Origin: Bacteroidota bacterium
GTDB taxonomy: Bacteria > Bacteroidota > Bacteroidia > Cytophagales > Cyclobacteriaceae
Assembly (NCBI GenBank): GCA_027593175.1
Contig: JAQCJI010000019.1
Coordinates: 1-37,220 of the forward strand
Direction of reading: 5' to 3'
DNA length: 37,220 bases
Of this stretch, positions 9,938 through 22,897 are shown in pieces. The notes under the pieces were generated by a model. The model made no database searches. It was not told where the DNA came from and saw only the letters and a program-made list of their open reading frames with translations. Position numbers and translations under genes: made by a program. Position 1 is the stretch's first letter, and each line of letters opens with the position of its first letter.

Positions 9938-10237
9938 ATACTCATCTAAGAATGCTAGCCCATATTCAGACTTATTTTTAATTCTCCTCGATCGCATTTT
10001 TTCAAAAGCTACTCTCCTAAAAATCAAAAGAATAGTTTACTTAATCTTCGAGAATCCTTCCATTTATTACTTATACAATTGTTTAACCTTTTAAGGTTTA
10101 TAACAGATTTAAAACAACTTGTACTCTATTATTGACAGATTTTTTTAAAAAAGCAGTCCTGGATTTTGAATTCTAAGTTGCTTTTAACTTATCTTACATT
10201 TAATATTTTAACATCCCAACCATTAATCCCTAGAACA
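9938..10237. other. AT-rich intergenic leader before DUF3276
   Basis: 300 bases without a recognisable gene. It has a short inverted repeat AACCTT-TT-AAGGTT (10085-10098) and several A/T runs; no convincing TAnnTTTG promoter was found. The frame of the next gene is open from 10166 on, but that part is probably untranslated. Confidence 0.5.
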
Positions 10238-10567
10238 TTGGAAGATCACCGAGGATACGATAGAGAAGAAATTTTCTCAAAAAAAGTAAAAGCAGGTAAG
10301 CGAACCTATTTTTTTGACATTAAGGCAACCCGGGGAAACGATTATTACTTGACCATCACTGAAAGTAAACGAAGAATAGATGGAGATAACTGCAGTTATG
10401 AAAAGCACAAAATCTTTTTGTACAAAGAAGATTTCTTCAAATTTGTGAATGCATTGAATGAAGCGGTTGATCATGTGAAAACCGATTTGCTTCCTGATTT
10501 CAATTTTGAGCAATTTGAAAACGAAGATTCTGAAAACGAAGTTAATAATGACCTTCGTTGGGAATAA
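10238..10567 (+). CDS. PUR-family DNA/RNA-binding protein (DUF3276), TTG start
   Basis: About 110 residues from TTG at 10238. DUF3276 proteins are small Bacteroidota single-strand nucleic-acid-binding proteins with a PUR-alpha-like fold. The signature stretch EEIFSKKVKAGKRTYFFDIK is followed by NDYYLTITESKRR, and the C-terminus is acidic with a terminal tryptophan (DLRWE), as usual for the family. There is no in-frame ATG or GTG before the conserved domain. The frame opens at a TTG at 10166, but the TTG at 10238 gives (M)EDHRGYDREEIFSKK, matching the short polar N-terminus I expect for relatives, whereas the 24 extra residues are hydrophobic and look non-coding. Likely RNA or ssDNA chaperone; precise role not known. 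Confidence 0.82.
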   Translation: MEDHRGYDREEIFSKKVKAGKRTYFFDIKATRGNDYYLTITESKRRIDGDNCSYEKHKIFLYKEDFFKFVNALNEAVDHVKTDLLPDFNFEQFENEDSENEVNNDLRWE

Positions 10568-10646: not shown

Positions 10647-11741
10647 ATGCAGCGGTTTTTCGTATACCTGATTCTTTCCTTAGTCACTTTCCTGGTATTT
10701 GGTTCGTATTTTTCTGCTATTTCCCTGTATTTAGTCACCTCGCTAATCTTAGCTGCATTACTAAGGCCACTCACCAATAAGATCAATGAAGTGCATATCT
10801 TAGGCCAGCACATCCCTCGAGGGATTGCCATTCTAGCGTCTTATGCTACTATGGTTTCTACCGTCTTTTTACTTGGTCTACTCTTTTTCCCATTAATCAA
10901 TCGCCAAGTTATAGTATTGAGCGATCTGGATTTGGAAAGCATTTACCTCCAACTTGAAGTTCCATTGGAAAAGCTTGAACGGTTTTTATTGAAGTACCAA
11001 CTCATTGATAACAAACAAGGTATTTTAATTGAAGAACTGCGGTTTTCTATTCAAGAACCTCTGAAGAAGTTTAATATTGGTGGATTTATTACAGGCGCAA
11101 TTTCAATAACCAGCAATATATTTATTGGCACCTTGGCAGTAGCCTTCATCTGCTTTTTCCTACTATTCGAAAATGGCTTGCTTCGTAGAAATCTTTTAAA
11201 TCTTATTCCAAACGCCTACTTCGAGCTATCGGTAGCCACCTTTACCAAAGTTGAAAAATTACTTTCGAATTACCTTTTTGGATTACTACTTCAGGTTTTG
11301 GCTATTTTTCTCCTTGCCGCTTTCGGCCTTAGCCTATCAGGTGTAGAATATGCATTGACAATCGCGTTGTTTGCGGCCATCGCCAACCTTATTCCCTATG
11401 CAGGTCCGATTTTAGGGATCATTTTTGGTATTTTGGTTGGAATTACTACCGAGGATTTTACGATAGACAGCGACTACAGCTTTTTTCTTTTTAAAATTAT
11501 TTCTGTGTTTGCAGCGGTTCAAATCACAGACAATGTTCTGCTGCAGCCACTTATTTTTTCCAAATCAGTAAAAGCACATCCCCTTGAAATATTTGTTATT
11601 ATCTTTGCCGGAGCAAAAATCGCAGGAATCCTAGGGATGATATTTGCAATACCCGTATACACCATTTTCAGAGTATCGGTATTGGAATTTTATAGTGGGT
11701 ACAAGTCCTACAAAATATTTAAAATTAAAGTAACGAATTAA
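10647..11741 (+). CDS. AI-2E family transporter (PerM/DUF20 permease)
   Basis: 364 residues, integral inner-membrane protein. The sequence begins with two hydrophobic helices (residues about 3-40), a third near 55-80, then a soluble stretch of roughly 70 residues, and a hydrophobic C-terminal half with four or five helices. The conserved region ALFAAIANLIPYAGPILG near residues 240-260 is typical of the AI-2E exporter/PerM family. Despite the family name, most members have no proven link to autoinducer-2, and several act in cation or proton exchange, so no substrate is assigned. Its stop codon shares one base with the ATG of ychF (TAATG), which suggests coupled translation. Confidence 0.88.
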   Translation: MQRFFVYLILSLVTFLVFGSYFSAISLYLVTSLILAALLRPLTNKINEVHILGQHIPRGIAILASYATMVSTVFLLGLLFFPLINRQVIVLSDLDLESIYLQLEVPLEKLERFLLKYQLIDNKQGILIEELRFSIQEPLKKFNIGGFITGAISITSNIFIGTLAVAFICFFLLFENGLLRRNLLNLIPNAYFELSVATFTKVEKLLSNYLFGLLLQVLAIFLLAAFGLSLSGVEYALTIALFAAIANLIPYAGPILGIIFGILVGITTEDFTIDSDYSFFLFKIISVFAAVQITDNVLLQPLIFSKSVKAHPLEIFVIIFAGAKIAGILGMIFAIPVYTIFRVSVLEFYSGYKSYKIFKIKVTN

Positions 11742-12838
11742 TGGCATTACAATGTGGCATAGTAGGTCTCCCCAATGTGGGCAAATCTACCTTGTTTAAT
11801 GCGCTTTCAAGCGCTAAAGCAGAAGCAGCTAACTTCCCTTTTTGTACCATAGAACCCAATTTAGGGGTGATATCGGTTCCTGATTCTAGACTTCAAGAAC
11901 TAGAGGAACTCGTAAATCCTCAGCGGGTAGTCCCTACCATCATCGAGTTTGTAGATATTGCAGGACTAGTGAAAGGCGCTTCCAAAGGAGAAGGATTAGG
12001 CAATAAGTTTCTTGCCAACATACGCGAGGTGGATGCCATTATTCATGTAATCCGCTGCTTTGAAGACAACAACATTGTTCATGTTGCTGGTGGAGTAGAT
12101 CCCCTATTTGACAAGGAGGTCATCGACACTGAACTTCAACTTAAGGATCTGGAGTCGGTAGAAAAAAAGATTCAGCGAAGCGAAAAAATGGCCAGGTCCG
12201 GAGATGCCAAAGCAAAAAGAGAATTGGAAACTTTACTCCAATTTAAAGAAGGGCTTACCTCAGGCCTTAATGCACGCGCCATTGAAGTGGAAAAAGAAGA
12301 TTTAGAGGCCGTAAGGGACCTTTATTTACTCACTATAAAGCCTGTTCTTTATGTTGCCAATGTGGATGAGGCAAGTATACATATAGGCAATGCCTTTGTA
12401 GACCGCTTACGTGAAAAAGTGAAGGAGGAACAAGCAGATGTCATTGTACTCTGCGCCGCCATCGAATCTCAAATCGCTGAATTTGAAGACCCTGAAGAAA
12501 AAGAACTATTTTTAGTAGAGTATGGACTCAAAGAAAGTGGACTGAACCGTTTGATTTATGGAGCATACACCCTACTTAATCTAATTACTTACTTTACTGC
12601 TGGTGTACAAGAGGTTCGTGCTTGGACCATTCGAAAAGGATGGAAGGCCCCTCAGGCTGCTGGTGTGATTCACACCGACTTCGAAAGGGGATTTATCAAA
12701 GCAGAAGTAATTCGCATCGCCGACTATAAACAATTTAAAACGGAAGTGGGTTGTAGAGATAGCGGCAAAATATCCATAGAGGGCAAGGAATATATAGTCC
12801 AAGATGGTGATATTATGCATTTTAGGTTCAATGTTTGA
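11741..12838 (+). CDS. ychF: Redox-regulated ATPase YchF (Obg-like)
   Basis: 365 residues, the standard length. A ribosome-associated P-loop ATPase of the Obg/OLA1 family with roles in translation and stress response. Visible are the P-loop G9-LPNVGKST, the switch segment [20 protein letters not shown] near residues 70-90, a NVDE motif in the place of the usual NKxD (the reason the family prefers ATP over GTP), a coiled-coil region about residues 130-190, and a C-terminal TGS domain from about residue 280 ([31 protein letters not shown]). Start ATG overlaps the stop of the permease by one base. A putative promoter for the Cas6-like gene begins at the very end of this gene. Confidence 0.97.
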
Positions 12839-12866
12839 GTTAAAATAAAAAATAAGTTTAGATTTG
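12834..12866 (+). promoter_or_regulatory. Putative promoter of the Cas6-like gene
   Basis: TTTG (12834-12837, overlapping the ychF stop), a 21-base spacer and TAGATTTG (12859-12866). The GTG start at 12932 is about 65 bases downstream, leaving an AT-rich 5' leader. The -7 box is a perfect consensus match; spacing is slightly long. Confidence 0.42.
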
Positions 12867-12931
12867 CAAACTCAATCTTAAATTCAAAGAATTAGAGCTG
12901 CTAAGATTATTATTGTTTTATTTTTATAATC

Positions 12932-13822
12932 GTGAGAGTACGTCTGATATTTTCCCTAAAAAACAAAGGCTCTTTTTTGCCTTTCCATCATCAGTATATC
13001 CTAGCTCAATTTCTTAAGGGACTGATTGTCAAAGGAGGTAAAGAAGAGTTTTACAACTATAATTTCTTTAATTTCTCGGGATTGAAGGGACAAACCAAGA
13101 TCAGTCGTAGTGGACTACACTATTACTCCAGTCTTGTAACGCTCGTGCTTTCTTCTCAAAGTGAGGAATTTATAGATTACTTGTTGGAACAAGTTTTTGA
13201 AGCTCCAAAAATCGAGCTTGGCAATTTAATCCTCTCTCCAGAGTATACAGAACTTGAAACAGAACCTATTTTGGAGGTTTCAAATAAATTTATTTGCATC
13301 TCTCCCTTGGTATTGATCACGCCTGCTTTTAATGAAGAAGCTGGAAAGCGGTTCATCAACCCAGACAGCGACGAGTTTTCTGATTTACTCTATGAATCTA
13401 CACTCACTAGAATGGAGAAATCAGGATGGTATACCCCAGAACAAATGGAGTCTTTCTTCAAGTTTCAAGTGGTGCCAGACATGGTTTATGTTAACAAACT
13501 CAAAGATCAACAGAAGAAATTTGCTCGGATCTATGCGGTCTATGACCTTGATGTGAAATATGAAGTGAGAGGTTACACACTTCCCTTCACACTCTATGCT
13601 GCTCCGGAGGTTCAAGATTTCGTCTTTAAGTGTGGATTAGGTGCCTTCACCCACAAGGGTTTCGGTATGATGGACTTGGCAATACACCCTGCTGATAATA
13701 AGACTAGCCCTTACAAATTTAAAAGAGAGGGATTTGTTACTTATAAAACCAGCGCCGATCGAGCTAGACAAAATGTAGCCCCTACGGAAGAAGAAACTGA
13801 GGCTTCCCCTCAGGAATTTTAA
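12932..13822 (+). CDS. cas6: Cas6-family endoribonuclease-like protein, stand-alone
   Basis: 296 residues with GTG start (MRVRLIF...). The layout is that of Cas6, the ribonuclease that cuts CRISPR precursor RNA: an N-terminal ferredoxin-like beta strand, helix one beginning FHHQYILAQFLKGLI (residues 18-32), the FFNFSGLKG segment (45-53) that parallels the F-x-F-S-x-L element of Cas6, a second strand-rich block ending LVTLVLSS, a second RRM-like half, and a C-terminal glycine-rich loop CGLGAFTHKGFG (234-245). The region between helix one and FFNFSG, where Cas6 normally has its catalytic histidine, contains none here; His19, His20 and His63 are the nearest. The last ~20 residues are an acidic tail. 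No CRISPR repeat or other cas gene is present in the window. The gene follows ychF by 93 bases and has its own likely promoter and a strong terminator. Family assignment is by pattern; catalytic activity is unproven. Confidence 0.8.
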   Translation: MRVRLIFSLKNKGSFLPFHHQYILAQFLKGLIVKGGKEEFYNYNFFNFSGLKGQTKISRSGLHYYSSLVTLVLSSQSEEFIDYLLEQVFEAPKIELGNLILSPEYTELETEPILEVSNKFICISPLVLITPAFNEEAGKRFINPDSDEFSDLLYESTLTRMEKSGWYTPEQMESFFKFQVVPDMVYVNKLKDQQKKFARIYAVYDLDVKYEVRGYTLPFTLYAAPEVQDFVFKCGLGAFTHKGFGMMDLAIHPADNKTSPYKFKREGFVTYKTSADRARQNVAPTEEETEASPQEF

Positions 13823-13847: not shown

Positions 13848-13888
13848 CCCAAAAAATACTTTCTGCTTTTTTGGGGGTTATTTTTTTT
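13848..13888 (+). terminator. Terminator of the Cas6-like gene
   Basis: CCCAAAAAA (13848-13856) pairs with TTTTTTGGG (13867-13875) around a 10-base loop, and eight T follow at 13881-13888. It begins 25 bases after the stop. Confidence 0.8.
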
Positions 13889-13897
13889 AAAAAATAT

Positions 13898-15166
13898 TCA
13901 AAGCCTTCGCTTATTGGGTTGCAGGTACACATATCCTACCAACTGGTCGTAGCGAGACCCGAGGGCTCGGTAATAAACCAACACCTCGTATTCATTTTCA
14001 GTTTGAAAATGACTCCCCTCTAAGGATTCAGAATCAAAAAGTCCATCCCCCCGATCCGATGCATAGTGGTAGTCATCCCCTCCTTGCTTCAATAGTAAAG
14101 ATGTGGTATATATCCGCTTCTTGGCGTCGTAAACTAATGTTGCTTCAAGTGCTTTCCCCCATTGACTGAGGGCCCCTATGAGCTTAATGGTTTTTCCTGG
14201 CACATCATTCAAGTAAAAAGTGGTGTAAATGTATTCACTCTCCACTTCAGGATCACCCCCTGGTCGATCGCTCGTTTGAATCATATATTGCCCATTTAGG
14301 TCCAAATATTGCGCATAAACGCCGCCAGGCCGAGGTAGATCTACCCTTACCTCTGCGGAAATTAGCGATTCCTCTACTTTTACCGAGGCTATATTGACGC
14401 CTGTGGCTCGGATAAACCGGAGGTCTATAAATCGAAATTCATTGCCCGCTCTGAAGGTACTCTCCCCCTCAAATGGTTCGTAGCGAATCAGCTTGGAATT
14501 TTGATTCAAAAAGGTAGGTTTAGTCAAGATTTTAACATTATCCCAGCGTTGATTTTGACGCATGTACACCTTGACCTGGGCGAGAGGATCAATCACCTCA
14601 AGCTTGCTATAATTCACGGTTGCATTGATTTGCTGCAGCGCACGCCGGTCTTCAGTTTGTACTGGAGGTACCAATTGGGCGCCCACAGCAGCTAAATTTT
14701 CTACTATCATAAACCTTCGCGTGAAGATGACCGCATTTTCATCTCGATTCTTGTACACTTTCAGCAGGTAATTTCCGGATTTACTTACACGGGGAAGGGT
14801 AAACGAATACCGAATGTAGGGCATTCTTGTGTTCACAGAATAGGCATAATCCATCACATTGTATTCGTTAAATGCCAACGAAAAATCAGTATCCTTCAAG
14901 GCTGATTTTTTCCAATCCGCATCACAGTGCACCAGTTTGGCAGTATACAACTCGGGATCATAAGACAAATCATCAAACAACACCACCAAGGACTTTGAAT
15001 CTGTCAAGGAGATCACAGGCGAAAGCAGCTGATTTTCTGTACCTGAACCTTGGGGAAACATCCGAACAGACAAGATATGATCTACGAATACCTTGTCTTC
15101 TAAAACCTGCCCATTGATCACTTGTGATAGGGATATAAAGAGGATAAACAGTAGCAGTAATTTCAT
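13898..15166 (-). CDS. Type IX secretion system Plug-type protein (DUF5103)
   Basis: 422 residues from the ATG at 15166. An N-terminal signal peptide (MKLLLLFILFISLSQVINGQ) indicates export. The body matches the DUF5103 family, one member of which was identified as the Plug that seals the SprA translocon of the type IX secretion system in Flavobacterium. Recognisable segments include the opening VFVDHILSVRMFP, LVVLFDDLSYD, LVHCDADWKKS, and the C-terminal YEVLVYYRALGSRYDQLVGY. The frame extends 24 codons upstream, but that stretch overlaps the end of the ABC-F gene and is polar, so MKLLLLF is preferred. The ABC-F gene ends 14 bases upstream, so the two are probably co-transcribed. Presence of this protein implies a T9SS elsewhere in the genome. 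Confidence 0.85.
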   Translation of the reverse strand: MKLLLLFILFISLSQVINGQVLEDKVFVDHILSVRMFPQGSGTENQLLSPVISLTDSKSLVVLFDDLSYDPELYTAKLVHCDADWKKSALKDTDFSLAFNEYNVMDYAYSVNTRMPYIRYSFTLPRVSKSGNYLLKVYKNRDENAVIFTRRFMIVENLAAVGAQLVPPVQTEDRRALQQINATVNYSKLEVIDPLAQVKVYMRQNQRWDNVKILTKPTFLNQNSKLIRYEPFEGESTFRAGNEFRFIDLRFIRATGVNIASVKVEESLISAEVRVDLPRPGGVYAQYLDLNGQYMIQTSDRPGGDPEVESEYIYTTFYLNDVPGKTIKLIGALSQWGKALEATLVYDAKKRIYTTSLLLKQGGDDYHYASDRGDGLFDSESLEGSHFQTENEYEVLVYYRALGSRYDQLVGYVYLQPNKRRL

Positions 15167-15180
15167 AGTGACATCGTTTT

Positions 15181-17109
15181 TTAAGCAGTTGAAACTTGCT
15201 GATGAAGCTGGGAGATTTGATCTACTAAGTTCTCCCAAGACGTATTTGAAGCCTCTAGAGATTCATCCACCTGTTGGTAGCTAGCTTGAATTTTTCGGGT
15301 CTGAACCTCATCCAAATACAAGGATGGATCTACCAATTTATCCTCTAGCTCTTTCTTTTTGACCTCCAACTGGCTGATTTCCTTTTCGATCAGCTGCAAC
15401 TGCTCTTCCAATTTTTTTAGTTCCCGCTTGGCCTGCTGGGAATCCTCCTTACTTTTTGGGGTAGCCACTTCCGCCTTAATTGGCTTTTGCATAGGTTCTG
15501 GAGAGTTGACCTCAACCTGCTGACTGCGCCAAAACTCATACTCCTCATAGGTTCCTGGATATTCCTTGATTTCATGCTGCTCGATATACCAGATCTTGTT
15601 TGCTACGCCTTTGATAAAATGTCGATCGTGGGAAACAGTGATAAACGTGCCTTCATACTGCTGAAGTGCCTGAATTAGGATATTGACCGATTGAAAATCC
15701 AAGTGGTTGGTCGGTTCATCGAGCAATAAAAAATTAGCCTCGGAGATTAGCGTTTTTGCCAAGGCTACGCGTGACTTCTCTCCTCCAGACAGCACCTTAA
15801 TTTTCTTGTATACCTCCTCGTTGGAGAACAGAAAACATCCCAAAACTCCTCTCAACTCCATCTCTGTCTTGCCGCTCCCCGCCTGCGACATTTCTTGAAT
15901 GATCTCATTGTCTAGAGTCAATGCTTCCAGCTGGTGCTGCGCAAAAAAGGATTTGATCACATTGTGACCCTCCTGCCTAGATCCTTGAAGTACTTCGGTG
16001 CCTGCAATAATTCGGAGCAAGGTAGATTTTCCCTTTCCATTGGCACCAATCAAAGCAATTTTATCCCCGCGATCAATGCGTGCTGTGGTGTTTTTCAGAA
16101 TAGTCAAGTCCCCATAAGCCTTGGATACCCGATCCAAGGTGACTACATCTCGACCGGATTTTTGTGAAAACTTAAATTTAAAATTCACAAAAGCCTCGTC
16201 ATTGACCACTTCATGGACCCGATCCAGCCTATCCAAGGCTTTGATGCGGGATTGAACCTGGTTGGATTTGGTAGCTTTGGCACGGAAGCGCTCAATAAAG
16301 CGCTCCGTCTGCTTGATCAGTTGCTGCTGGTTTTCAAAGGCATTTTGCTGTAGCTCCATGCGGAGTTTTTTCTCCTCCTTGTAGTAGGTATAGTTACCCG
16401 CATAGGTCGTTAAGGTCTCGTTGGCCACTTCCACCGTGGTAATGATGCAATTATCCAAAAAAGTCTGATCGTGAGAAATGACCACAACAGCTCCCTCGTA
16501 ATTTTTCAAGTAGTTCTCCACCCATTGGATTGAAGGAAGGTCAAGGTGGTTGGTGGGCTCATCTAGCATGAGAAGGGAGGGCTTTTCCAGGAGCAACTTG
16601 GCAAGCATGACCCGCATTCTCCATCCCCCAGAAAATTGCCGAAGTGGCTTTTGAAGGTCGCTAGTTTGAAAACCGATCCCTTCCAGCACTTCTTCTGCCT
16701 TGGCTTTGATAGTATAACCCTCGTTGGACTCAAATCGGTCCTGCAAAAAAGCCAGTTTGTTGATCACTTCGTCCGAATAATCGGTTTCCATCAATTTTAA
16801 TATCTTTTCGATTTCGTCTTGAATGGCCAAAGTTTCTTTAAATGCCGCCAAAGCTACATTCAAAATGCTATCGTCAGATTGGTAGGAAAGCAAATCCTGA
16901 TTTAAAAATCCAAGGGTGCAGTCTTTTGCTTTTTGTACATCTCCAGAAGACGGAAGGTAGTCTCCGTTGATAATTTTAAGTAAGGTGGATTTGCCGGTAC
17001 CGTTTTGACCCACTAGACCAATTTTGTCTTTAGGCTTGATGTGTAAGTTGGCATTTTCGTATAAGGCACGTCCGCCAATAAAATAAGAGAGGTTACTAAT
17101 CGATAACAT
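15181..17109 (-). CDS. ABC-F family ATP-binding protein
   Basis: 642 residues, two ABC ATPase domains in tandem and no membrane helices, the ABC-F arrangement (Uup/EttA/YfmR group), which act on the ribosome rather than in transport. First domain: Walker A GQNGTGKST (34-42), signature FSGGWRMR, Walker B LLMLDEPTNHLD. The linker that follows (about residues 240-310) is rich in charged and Gln residues and corresponds to the P-site tRNA interaction motif. Second domain: Walker A GANGKGKST near residue 350, signature LSGGEKSR, Walker B FLLLDEPTNHLD. The C-terminal ~100 residues form a Lys/Glu-rich coiled coil as in Uup and YdiF-type proteins. Exact subfamily is not decidable by eye. A -7 box ends four bases before the ATG, so the message may be leaderless. 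Confidence 0.93.
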   Translation of the reverse strand: MLSISNLSYFIGGRALYENANLHIKPKDKIGLVGQNGTGKSTLLKIINGDYLPSSGDVQKAKDCTLGFLNQDLLSYQSDDSILNVALAAFKETLAIQDEIEKILKLMETDYSDEVINKLAFLQDRFESNEGYTIKAKAEEVLEGIGFQTSDLQKPLRQFSGGWRMRVMLAKLLLEKPSLLMLDEPTNHLDLPSIQWVENYLKNYEGAVVVISHDQTFLDNCIITTVEVANETLTTYAGNYTYYKEEKKLRMELQQNAFENQQQLIKQTERFIERFRAKATKSNQVQSRIKALDRLDRVHEVVNDEAFVNFKFKFSQKSGRDVVTLDRVSKAYGDLTILKNTTARIDRGDKIALIGANGKGKSTLLRIIAGTEVLQGSRQEGHNVIKSFFAQHQLEALTLDNEIIQEMSQAGSGKTEMELRGVLGCFLFSNEEVYKKIKVLSGGEKSRVALAKTLISEANFLLLDEPTNHLDFQSVNILIQALQQYEGTFITVSHDRHFIKGVANKIWYIEQHEIKEYPGTYEEYEFWRSQQVEVNSPEPMQKPIKAEVATPKSKEDSQQAKRELKKLEEQLQLIEKEISQLEVKKKELEDKLVDPSLYLDEVQTRKIQASYQQVDESLEASNTSWENLVDQISQLHQQVSTA

Positions 17110-17113
17110 GGCG

Positions 17114-17121
17114 CAAAAATA
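17114..17121 (-). promoter_or_regulatory. Putative -7 box of the ABC-F gene (leaderless)
   Basis: On the minus strand TATTTTTG is followed by CGCC and the ATG at 17109. The geometry is the same as for the acyl-CoA reductase gene. No convincing -33 TTG was found. Confidence 0.38.
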
Positions 17122-17190
17122 ACCAATACTGACCTTTAATCTGAATCATTCTCTGAAGTATTCGATTAAATTTACCCAAAATACAAGGAC

Positions 17191-18384
17191 ATGACTTCTC
17201 TACTTCGTTTCTACCCTACCCTTTTAGCAGTTTTCCTTCTTAGCCTATCCGCTTGCAAAGAGGAAAAAGCAGCAGCTACTAGCGGTCTACTCGGTCAAAA
17301 AATTTCCATTACGGATGCAAAAGCAGATGTTCAGTTGGACAAACTCCAGCTTCCTGAAGGGTTTACCATTGAGGTTTGGGCGGCGGAAGTACCTAATGCG
17401 CGCTCCATGGCCCTTTCTGAAACTGGAATCGTCTTTGTCGGCAATCGGCAGGAAAAAAATGTGTATGCATTGGTAGATGAAAATGGAGATGGTAAGGCAG
17501 ATAGCAAGTATGTTTTGGCCAATGACCTACGCATGCCTAATGGAGTTGCCATAAAAGACGGAGACCTGTATGTGGCAGAAGTATCACGGATTCTTCGATT
17601 CAAGGATATTGAAAACAACCTGACAAACCCTACCTACGAGGTGGTCTACGATGGCTACCCCGACGAAGCGCACCATGGATGGAAATTCATCGCCTTTGGA
17701 CCCGATGGCTTACTCTACGTTCCTGTGGGAGCTCCTTGCAACATCTGCATTTCGGAGGACTTTATTTTTGCAAGCATTACTCGATTGGATGTAAACAAGC
17801 TGGGTTCAAAACCAGAAATCTATGCGCATGGTGTGCGGAATTCGGTAGGAATGACCTGGCATCCAGAGACCAAGGAACTGTGGTTTACCGATAATGGAAG
17901 AGACATGATGGGAGATGATGTTCCAGATTGCGAGCTCAATAGGGCTCAAGAAATTGGGCAGGATTTCGGCTATCCTTTCTGGCATGCGGGTACAGTCCAA
18001 GATCCTGAATTTGGGACTGAAGGGCAAGAGGCCTCCTTCTACGTCCCTCCAGTAGCTAAACTAGGGGCTCATACCGCACCGCTAGGCTTAAGATTTTATA
18101 CAGGAGATCAATTCCCTGCTTCTTATAAAAATCAACTCATCATCGCCAAACACGGCAGCTGGAATCGAACCAAAAAATCTGGTTACGAATTGGTCGTCGT
18201 AAAATTAGACAGTACAGGAACTGCCCTTGGCCAAGAGGTTCTAGTATCTGGATGGCTTGACCAAGCTACCCAAGAGGCATGGGGAAGACCAGTAGATGTG
18301 CAGCAACTTGCGGATGGCAGCCTACTAATCTCCGACGATGTAGCCAACTGCATTTACCGCTTGAGCTATACACCTAAATCGTAG
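17191..18384 (+). CDS. Sorbosone/glucose dehydrogenase-type (PQQ) beta-propeller lipoprotein
   Basis: 397 residues. The signal peptide ends in LSAC with Cys22 as lipidation site, so this is a lipoprotein. The mature part is a six-bladed beta-propeller of the glucose/sorbosone dehydrogenase family: LPEGFTIEVWAAEVPNARSM opens the domain, DENGDGKAD lies in the first blades, EAHHGWKFIAFGPDGLLYVP carries the conserved His region, followed by YAHGVRNSVGMTWHPET and WFTDNGRDMMGDDVPDCE, and RPVDVQQLADGSLLISDD near the end. Known relatives are soluble PQQ-dependent aldose dehydrogenases that need calcium; whether this one binds PQQ is not shown. Periplasmic or outer-membrane sugar oxidation is likely. 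Convergent with the AarF gene; no close operon partner. Confidence 0.88.
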   Translation: MTSLLRFYPTLLAVFLLSLSACKEEKAAATSGLLGQKISITDAKADVQLDKLQLPEGFTIEVWAAEVPNARSMALSETGIVFVGNRQEKNVYALVDENGDGKADSKYVLANDLRMPNGVAIKDGDLYVAEVSRILRFKDIENNLTNPTYEVVYDGYPDEAHHGWKFIAFGPDGLLYVPVGAPCNICISEDFIFASITRLDVNKLGSKPEIYAHGVRNSVGMTWHPETKELWFTDNGRDMMGDDVPDCELNRAQEIGQDFGYPFWHAGTVQDPEFGTEGQEASFYVPPVAKLGAHTAPLGLRFYTGDQFPASYKNQLIIAKHGSWNRTKKSGYELVVVKLDSTGTALGQEVLVSGWLDQATQEAWGRPVDVQQLADGSLLISDDVANCIYRLSYTPKS

Positions 18385-21268: not shown

Positions 21269-22897
21269 TTAAATTAATATGCGTACCGGGTCTTCTAGCA
21301 AACCCTTCAGGGTTAAAAGGAAAGCAGAGCCCAACGCTCCATCGACCACGCGGTGGTCACAAGAGAGCGTCACCTTCATCACATTGCCAATTTTAATTTG
21401 CCCATCCTTGATGATGACAGTTTCCTTGATTCCTCCCACTGCAAGGATACAGGCATCTGGGGGATTGATGATGGCGGTAAATTCATCGATGCCAAACATG
21501 CCCAAATTAGAGATGGTGAAGGTATTTCCTTCCCAATCTTTAGGCTGCAATTCCTTATTTTTGGCACGCTGTCCCAAAGATTTGGCTTGGTTAGAAATCT
21601 GGCTGAGCGACAGCTGATCCGCAAAGCGGATCACAGGAACTAGTAACCCTTCCTCCAAAGCTACAGCCATCCCGATATGGATGTGGTCGTTGTAGCGAAT
21701 CTTATCTCCTAGCCAACTCGAATTCACTTTTGGATTTTGACGCAAGGCAGCTGCTGCTGCTTTGATGACCAAATCGTTGAAAGAAATTTTTGCAGTACCA
21801 AATTCATTCATGCTCTTTCTCGCCTCGATGGCCTTATCCATGTTGATTTCCATAGTTAAGTAGAAGTGGGGAGCCGAATACTTACTTTCTGCCAATCGTT
21901 TGGCAATTATTTTACGCATTTGAGAAACATTTTCTTCTCTGAAGCTCTCTTGCCCTAAAACAAGGTTTACAGTTACTTGAGGAGCTGCTACTGACGAGCT
22001 ACTTATTGCTGCAGCAGGTACAAAGGTTTCAATATCTTTTTTGACAATCCGTCCTCCTTCTCCACTACCCGCCACCTGACGAATATCTACTCCCTTTTCA
22101 CTGGCTATCTTTTTTGCTAATGGAGAGGCCTTAAGTCGATCATTTCCATTTGAACTAGTAACTGCTGCTTTAACTACTACTGGAGGTGGTGCAACAGCCA
22201 CAGATGATGCAGGACTTGCTACTTCAACTGAAGCAGCGATCGATGCTCCACCCTGGTGTGCCGCCAAAAAACTTTGAAAATCAGCACCCTTTTCTCCAAT
22301 CACTGCAATAACACCATCCACAGGTACACTTCCTCCTGCTTCTACGCCAAGGTAAAGCAGTACTCCATCTTCGTAAGACTCCAACTCCATGGTGGCCTTG
22401 TCAGTCTCAACTTCAGCGATGATTTCTCCCGACTTAACAGAATCTCCAACTTTTTTCAACCAAGAGGAAATAGTTCCTTCCTGCATGGTATCACTCATTT
22501 TTGGCATGGTCACTACGACCGCTGATATAGAAGATGTAGCGACGGCAACGGCTGCAGCTTTCACTTCATTTACTACAGGAGCAATGGCATCAACTGCACT
22601 AGGTGCTTCTGCCTGTACCACTACAGGGGATTCTAATAATAAATGTTCGAATACCTCTCCCTTCTCGCCGATTATCGCGATGATTCCATTGACAGGAACC
22701 GAATCTTTTTCTTTTACACCTACATAAAGCAATACCCCCTCTTCGTAAGACTCCAACTCCATGGTAGCTTTATCCGTCTCCACCTCTGCCAGGATGTCTC
22801 CAGGCTTGACAGTATCACCTACTTTTTTCAACCAGGATGCAATCACACCTTCGTCCATGGTGTCACTCATTTTTGGCATTCTAATTATTTCGGCCAT
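21269..22897 (-). CDS. pdhC: Pyruvate dehydrogenase complex dihydrolipoamide acetyltransferase (E2)
   Basis: 542 residues, core subunit of the pyruvate dehydrogenase complex; transfers acetyl from lipoamide to CoA. Domains in order: lipoyl domain one (residues 1-80, ETDKATMELESY, lipoyl-Lys43); Ala/Val/Pro-rich linker; lipoyl domain two (about 126-205, lipoyl-Lys167); a second flexible linker; the peripheral-subunit-binding domain (KASPLAKKIASEKGVDI...GSGEGGRI); and the catalytic domain ending with DHRVVDG, His515 and Asp519. The pyruvate specificity is inferred from the bacterial two-lipoyl layout and the MPKMSDTM opening of PDH E2 proteins. E1 and E3 genes are not in the window. A good promoter precedes it and a terminator follows, so it is a single-gene unit. 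Confidence 0.94.
   Translation of the reverse strand: MAEIIRMPKMSDTMDEGVIASWLKKVGDTVKPGDILAEVETDKATMELESYEEGVLLYVGVKEKDSVPVNGIIAIIGEKGEVFEHLLLESPVVVQAEAPSAVDAIAPVVNEVKAAAVAVATSSISAVVVTMPKMSDTMQEGTISSWLKKVGDSVKSGEIIAEVETDKATMELESYEDGVLLYLGVEAGGSVPVDGVIAVIGEKGADFQSFLAAHQGGASIAASVEVASPASSVAVAPPPVVVKAAVTSSNGNDRLKASPLAKKIASEKGVDIRQVAGSGEGGRIVKKDIETFVPAAAISSSSVAAPQVTVNLVLGQESFREENVSQMRKIIAKRLAESKYSAPHFYLTMEINMDKAIEARKSMNEFGTAKISFNDLVIKAAAAALRQNPKVNSSWLGDKIRYNDHIHIGMAVALEEGLLVPVIRFADQLSLSQISNQAKSLGQRAKNKELQPKDWEGNTFTISNLGMFGIDEFTAIINPPDACILAVGGIKETVIIKDGQIKIGNVMKVTLSCDHRVVDGALGSAFLLTLKGLLEDPVRILI
22382..22871 (-). repeat. Internal duplication: two lipoyl-domain coding repeats
   Basis: The DNA for the two lipoyl domains is clearly duplicated: the stretch CTTCGTAAGACTCCAACTCC, for example, occurs around 22370 and again around 22741, each followed by similar sequence through the MPKMSDTM motif. 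The copies are about 372 bases apart. It is a normal tandem-domain duplication within one gene. Confidence 0.75.

Follow-up and report, generated by a model that had tools for sequence, protein, structure and literature searches.

The window analysed here is a stretch of 37,220 nucleotides (contig JAQCJI010000019.1) from a metagenome-assembled genome (MAG) of Algoriphagus, which has a size of 2.49 Mb and a completeness of 83.5%. On its forward strand, at positions 12932-13822, lies one intact open reading frame (ORF) for 296 amino acids with a GTG start which, judged by sequence comparison, encodes a genuine Cas6, i.e., a protein of the family known from CRISPR (clustered regularly interspaced short palindromic repeats) systems. 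The gene stands alone, apart from arrays and other cas genes, and a Cas6 which has turned into a core gene is a real and unusual feature. The following features make up the locus.

10166-10567, forward strand: gene for a DUF3276 protein, conserved member of the neighbourhood
10647-11741, forward strand: gene for an AI-2E family transporter (by Pfam), conserved member of the neighbourhood
11741-12838, forward strand: ychF, GTPase/ATPase family (by Pfam and adjacency), directly upstream of cas6
12859-12866, forward strand: promoter-like box TAGATTTG of the TAnnTTTG type between ychF and cas6; mean column identity 0.88 in 81 loci
12913-12931, forward strand: leader block, TTGTCTCA..TATTTTTA in most of 81 loci, immediately before the GTG start
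12932-13822, forward strand: stand-alone Cas6 orthologue with two RRM/ferredoxin-like halves by homology and a glycine-rich loop at about residues 235-245
13848-13890, forward strand: terminator-like hairpin (9 pairs) with a T-run, between the convergent cas6 and plug-domain genes
13898-15238, reverse strand: plug-domain gene of the type IX secretion system (T9SS; by Pfam), convergent downstream neighbour

Curated Cas6 models match the protein across both RAMP/RRM halves: PF01881 of Pfam with 75.6 bits (E 8e-21, cut-off 23), TIGR01877 with 70.6 bits against a cut-off of 58.65, and Cas6b of PADLOC over residues 1-248 (2.7e-27); PF21350 of Pfam also matches, under its cut-off. Among structures of the Protein Data Bank (PDB), 3ufc (the non-catalytic PfuCas6nc; 1e-7), 5yi6 (named Cas6 1) and 3qjj/3qjp were found; the product of 3qjj, 3qjl and 3qjp is PH0350, which we take to be PhCas6nc. 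A profile of 26 orthologues additionally matched PfuCas6 (3pkm/3i4h), and in profile-profile comparison residues 1-250 aligned to five Cas6s from CRISPR loci of relatives (probability 99.5, E 3.5e-22). The loop glycines G235, G237, G243 and G245 are present in 50 of 50 orthologues. All these searches agree with the designation of the protein as Cas6-like in an earlier note on this DNA, which had been made from the letters alone.

The same note had described two RRM-like halves and the glycine-rich loop, and these hold by homology. Two AlphaFold models were obtained, with input alignments containing only close orthologues (82-98% identical to the window protein), and both were weak, with mean pLDDT (predicted local distance difference test) values of 39.4 and 52.8. 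The N-terminal half of the latter model has the order beta-alpha-beta-beta-alpha-beta, and its first seven Foldseek matches in the PDB were Cas6 or Cas6-related chains (3qjj, 5yi6, 3ufc, 3i4h; TM-scores of 0.41-0.46). Since the models are poor, the double-RRM fold is supported more by homology than by them.

The scan covered 33 main ORFs of the window; 24 further ORFs among its 57 of at least 80 amino acids overlap with them. No cas family was detected by Pfam among the other 32 main ORFs and no CRISPR array by a scan across the window, in agreement with the earlier note, whose naming of the neighbours (ychF before, the T9SS plug gene after) was likewise correct by Pfam. The local order runs from the DUF3276 gene over the AI-2E transporter gene, ychF and cas6 to the convergent plug gene and then to a gene for an ABC-transporter ATPase. 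No Rfam family reached its gathering score in the window, and a repeat scan of the window gave nothing noteworthy; the repeat 22266-22507 / 22638-22879 arises from the two lipoyl domains which an acyltransferase frame of a 2-oxoacid dehydrogenase encodes, and is ordinary.

Independence from CRISPR was assessed in the genus with a marker set of Cas1, Cas3 and RAMPs (class 2 effectors and type IV systems were not searched as such). The window's own genome, as far as its 83.5% completeness allows, had no Cas1, no RAMP and no Cas3 over the cut-off, and a search with PF10040 gave no Cas6 of that family. In the genus, Cas1 occurred in 21 of 71 genomes; among 70 genomes, 5 had RAMPs and 8 had Cas3 over the cut-off (all 70 matched Cas3 at E 0.001 or better; the 62 below the cut-off were not counted). 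Altogether 23 of the 70 genomes carried a marker, and all 23 had the stand-alone gene; so did 46 of the 47 marker-free genomes, including the single-contig genomes G033 and G062, and 28 of 28 marker-free genomes which were at least 90% complete. No CRISPR array was found in 129 loci around the gene (2.10 Mb), the single match (L119) being a head-to-tail repeat; the script detected arrays in 9 of 15 control loci and thus misses some. The gene is not encoded together with an array and other cas genes, as would be expected for an active CRISPR enzyme.

These data bear on the suggestion, also made earlier, that the protein could be a CRISPR Cas6 which acts in trans on arrays elsewhere in the genome. 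Its basis would be that CRISPR systems exist in the genus (see the Cas1 counts), that a partial type III locus on a 6-kb contig piece (L210) showed no Cas6, and that PF01881 matched nothing but the stand-alone gene in the five genomes with RAMPs; the type III Cas6s belong to another subfamily. With PF01881, 14 genomes were searched altogether, and the stand-alone gene was the sole match in 13 and absent from G020. An own Cas6 was present in 10 of 11 class 1 CRISPR loci opened in the genus, namely in six type I loci (L137, L139-L141, L145, L147) and four type III loci (L206, L208 and L209 by PADLOC, L207 by BLAST); the Cas3-bearing genomes G021 and G031 were outside the opened set. With this provision of Cas6 in the loci themselves, the retention of the stand-alone gene in nearly all marker-free genomes, and the loss of the canonical catalytic residues (see below), action in trans appears very improbable, arrays without cas genes not having been searched genome-wide.

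A few properties of the CRISPR loci may be recorded here. In the type III loci L206-L209 the small Cas6 of another subfamily is situated beside cas10. Cas5 and Cas7 of L206 match III-D models of PADLOC, although according to a review a cas6 homologue had not been described for III-D (PMC8616872). L206 also encodes, at 12170-13582 and 16246-17853, proteins with matches to the candidate defence models PDC-M16A and PDC-M16B; they lie between its array and the genes of the type III effector. The type I loci L137, L139 and L141 contain a second small Cas6-like ORF near Cas6, with 226-228 amino acids from stop to stop.

The distribution of the gene is that of a core gene in the genus and is wide beyond it. 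Of 117 relatives, 97 gave a match in a search with the window protein. The stand-alone Cas6 was present in 70 of 71 Algoriphagus genomes, with identities of 84-97% besides the window's own copy; the sole genome without it (G020) is 81% complete and consists of about 510 contigs. An orthologue was found in 26 of 46 other genomes sampled from the order, spread over 12 of 21 families, and a 27th genome (G115) has divergent Cas6s only. In a sample of the class, 27 of 395 genomes scored at least 179 bits with profile A1, the other 13 of the 40 matching genomes reaching at most 58 bits. In a second order the gene occurred in 41 of 42 genomes; none of its 33 good-quality genomes and none of its 23 genera lacked it. 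A third order had it in 3 of 3 genomes. Among 345 genomes drawn from the phylum, no match above 91.3 bits was found outside the class. A pattern-based scan of viral contigs with the stand-alone profile gave no relative; another Cas6 profile was equally empty, which indicates that the scan was not very sensitive. Four near-identical MAGs (L031, L032, L033, L035) are labelled Spirosoma fluviale and contain a cas6 which is 94-95% identical to the Algoriphagus gene of the window; the labels look wrong. For Echinicola vietnamensis, another member of the family, in which the gene would be expected, fitness data of transposon mutants have been published (PMC7311316).

The position next to ychF, to which the earlier note had drawn attention, was examined in related genomes, a gene pair being counted as adjacent if ychF lay no more than 1,200 nt upstream in the same orientation. 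This was found in 80 of 80 named loci, which stem mostly from Algoriphagus and other Cyclobacteriaceae (order Cytophagales), and in all 4 loci from further genera of this family. Among the order representatives it was seen in 9 of 26, and the second and third orders gave 4 of 15 and 3 of 3 loci, respectively. Since ychF lies next to cas6 in three orders, the pair looks ancestral, and the simplest reading is an arrangement of the common ancestor which was subsequently broken in many lineages. Downstream neighbours in the other orders vary by clade and provided no functional lead.

A tree and a residue alignment were based on 66 proteins, 50 stand-alone ones and 16 other Cas6s. Unused were 23 of 47 stand-alone matches (15 were the same gene fetched twice, 8 came from further genomes of the second order) and 4 of 20 weaker matches (two duplicates and two second small Cas6 ORFs). 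Twelve of the 16 other Cas6s are from loci with Cas1, Cas3 or an array; the remaining four (L146, L177, L203 and L204) are of no demonstrated CRISPR linkage. All 50 stand-alone proteins were on one side of a branch with support of 100/96, which was recovered in all 200 bootstrap trees. Nonsynonymous divergence (dN) from 12 relatives was 0.034-0.150 for cas6, 0.041-0.133 for ychF and 0.085-0.337 for the AI-2E transporter gene. The ratio of dN to synonymous divergence (dS) of cas6 was 0.024 in the sole usable comparison, dS being saturated in 11 of 12. The stand-alone cas6 thus evolves about as slowly as ychF, under strong purifying selection, and vertical inheritance is strongly indicated. Synteny, the support of the branch and the low dN led us to reject recent transfer as well as a remnant of a lost CRISPR locus. 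That the gene has a fixed role in the chromosome which lies outside immunity, as proposed earlier, is strongly supported by the near-universal occurrence in the genus, the neighbourhood of ychF in three orders, purifying selection and independence from CRISPR markers.

A putative promoter and terminator of its own had been ascribed to cas6 in the earlier note. The sequence TAnnTTTG is the promoter consensus of Bacteroidota, and the box at 12859-12866 is conserved in related loci; a scan for sigma-70 promoters, on the other hand, gave no match above chance. The hairpin and T-run at 13848-13890 have the form of a terminator, but the hairpin folds no better than shuffled sequences (z -0.65). In 81 of 81 loci, comprising that of the window and the 80 named ones (L031-L110), cas6 begins with GTG, and in the 26 order representatives, read by eye at the conserved N-terminus, 18 start codons were non-ATG and 8 were ATG; the GTG start may hint at low or controlled translation. 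In the same 81 loci the leader block at 12913-12931 is the best-conserved part of the spacer, with column identities of 0.85-0.96 in 8-column windows; in other families it was not seen by eye. The block is able to pair with TGAGAG at the start of cas6. An autoregulatory hairpin at the start codon would thus be conceivable, but the fold was no better than that of shuffles.

The catalytic triad of PfuCas6 consists of Tyr31, His46 and Lys52 (PMC3652601). The column of the catalytic histidine contains His in 13 of the 16 other Cas6s and a gap in 50 of 50 stand-alone proteins; the gap in an hhalign alignment coincides with the same segment, FLHxxGY. In the column of the helix-1 tyrosine, Tyr is found in 13 of 16 other Cas6s and in 0 of 50 stand-alone ones, which have K, E, D, S and other residues in a scattered manner. 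In the lysine column, where the alignment is less sure, Lys occurs in 2 of 50 stand-alone proteins versus 8 of 16 others. The Tyr/His/Lys triad of an active endoribonuclease of the PfuCas6 type is therefore absent from the stand-alone Cas6. Invariant in 50 of 50 are H20, S49, K52, P125, D183, Y186, K195, R199, Y215, P218, F219 and D248, together with the four loop glycines. Of the two activities considered in the earlier note, processing or binding of a cellular RNA, processing is less likely, because the canonical catalytic residues are gone in all 50 orthologues; binding, with which the pattern of residues is compatible, would be the likelier one.

Cleavage could perhaps have been retained with a rebuilt active site, for instance His20, at the start of helix 1, with Lys52, or the basic residues K195/R199, in an endoribonuclease which matures or degrades a cellular RNA. 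The invariance of H20 and K52 would suit such a site; the H20 column has Tyr in 13 and His in 3 of the 16 other Cas6s. The catalytic His of TtCas6e and PaCas6f belongs to helix 1, and SsoCas6, which has no catalytic His, uses basic residues for cutting (PMC3652601, PMC3727216). Since Cas6 proteins which cut without the canonical His, or with a helix-1 His, are known, a rebuilt H20/K52 site is conceivable. However, the canonical His segment is lacking altogether and the residues in the Tyr column are scattered; moreover, PfuCas6 also has a His in the matching NHQ motif, by alignment, yet its catalytic His is His46 (PMC3652601). We regard a rebuilt site as unlikely, if worth keeping in mind.

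Our preferred explanation, which we hold with moderate confidence, is that this Cas6 has been domesticated and would bind an RNA of the cell and leave it uncut. In a common ancestor of several orders of Bacteroidia, a Cas6 gene would have arrived beside ychF; descent since then would have been mostly vertical, the gene belonging to the core set and being transcribed as a unit of its own. Both RRM-like halves, the loop rich in glycine and the invariant basic and aromatic residues would have been retained, whereas the helix-1 tyrosine and the stretch bearing the catalytic histidine would have been lost. One particular cellular RNA, perhaps a small RNA, a structured leader or one related to the ribosome, may be bound between the halves and would be protected, folded or masked rather than cut. 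The RNA binding of PhCas6nc and the chaperone-like view of SsoCas6 (see below) favour such a role.

Several points weigh against this explanation. The gene is absent from 9 of 21 other families sampled in the order (in f11 and f13 also by profile), so that it is dispensable over long times. Nor is ychF adjacent in 17 of 26 order representatives and in 11 of 15 loci of the second order (one with less than 1,000 nt upstream); with adjacency broken so often, a direct partnership with YchF is weakly supported. The median isoelectric point (pI) of the core (residues 1-249) is 6.54 for the stand-alone proteins versus 9.05 for the other Cas6s (6.68 versus 9.35 for untrimmed frames), and the core of the window protein is acidic with a pI of 5.51, which speaks against affinity for RNA. 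SsoCas6 is active without a catalytic histidine (PMC3652601). The predicted structures are of poor quality.

The low pI and the presence of ychF next to the gene in three orders would also be in accord with a different fate of the protein, namely that RNA binding was entirely lost and that the fold now serves as a protein scaffold, e.g., for YchF or the ribosome. However, the loop glycines, K52, K195, R199 and Y215 are invariant, which fits an RNA site, and the neighbourhood of ychF is frequently broken; we consider a scaffold improbable.

A more specific form of the RNA-binding explanation could be proposed, although tentatively and with rather less confidence than the general one: a single exaptation, prior to the split of several orders of Bacteroidia, may have given bacteria without Hfq a core RNA-binding protein with a non-defence role, which would act as an RNA chaperone or be dedicated to a single conserved RNA. 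Hfq over the cut-off was found in 0 of 117 relatives, with one match below the cut-off (G111), so that the niche of an RNA chaperone would at least be open. This does not discriminate, since Hfq is missing also where cas6 is absent, and it counts among the points against the RNA-binding explanation.

If the exaptation is true, a CRISPR protein would have turned into a housekeeping gene in more than one order, an unusual case, and this in bacteria without detected Hfq. With TIGR01877 above its cut-off, annotation would designate the gene an ordinary CRISPR endoribonuclease, and genome surveys could miscount the stand-alone Cas6 as evidence for CRISPR. A testable question is also raised, namely which ligand a Cas6 has where CRISPR is absent. 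In the open-access literature no description of such a stand-alone Cas6 clade was found, with most subscription papers outside the search and an earlier description therefore possible; nothing was found there which links Cas6 with YchF. The "solo" or "standalone" Cas6 of another report is an ordinary CRISPR enzyme (PMC8866350).

Comparison with known systems shows both likeness and difference. With Cas6 as represented by PF01881, TIGR01877 and PfuCas6 (PDB 3i4h/3pkm), the stand-alone clade shares the homology of both RRM-like halves and the glycine-rich loop; it differs in the lack of CRISPR linkage, the absence of the His segment and the Tyr in 50 of 50 proteins, and the distribution of a core gene. 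Solo-Cas4 and cas1-solo are likewise homologues of cas genes away from CRISPR loci, but belong to different protein families. SsoCas6 (Sso1437) is similarly without the catalytic histidine; however, it works as an active enzyme of CRISPR, and five Cas6 paralogues are present in its genome. In the view of its authors, recognition and chaperone-like functions may be no less important than cleavage (PMC3652601). Among the nearest solved structures, by sequence and by fold, are the non-catalytic Cas6s of the Thermococcales, PfuCas6nc (PDB 3ufc) and PhCas6nc (PDB 3qjj/3qjl). PhCas6nc is an inactive protein whose binding site for unstructured RNA is the cleft between the halves (PMC3727216). Both are archaeal, and PfuCas6nc occurs beside an active paralogue, PfuCas6 (PMC3652601), whereas here most genomes of the genus contain the stand-alone Cas6 without any CRISPR marker.
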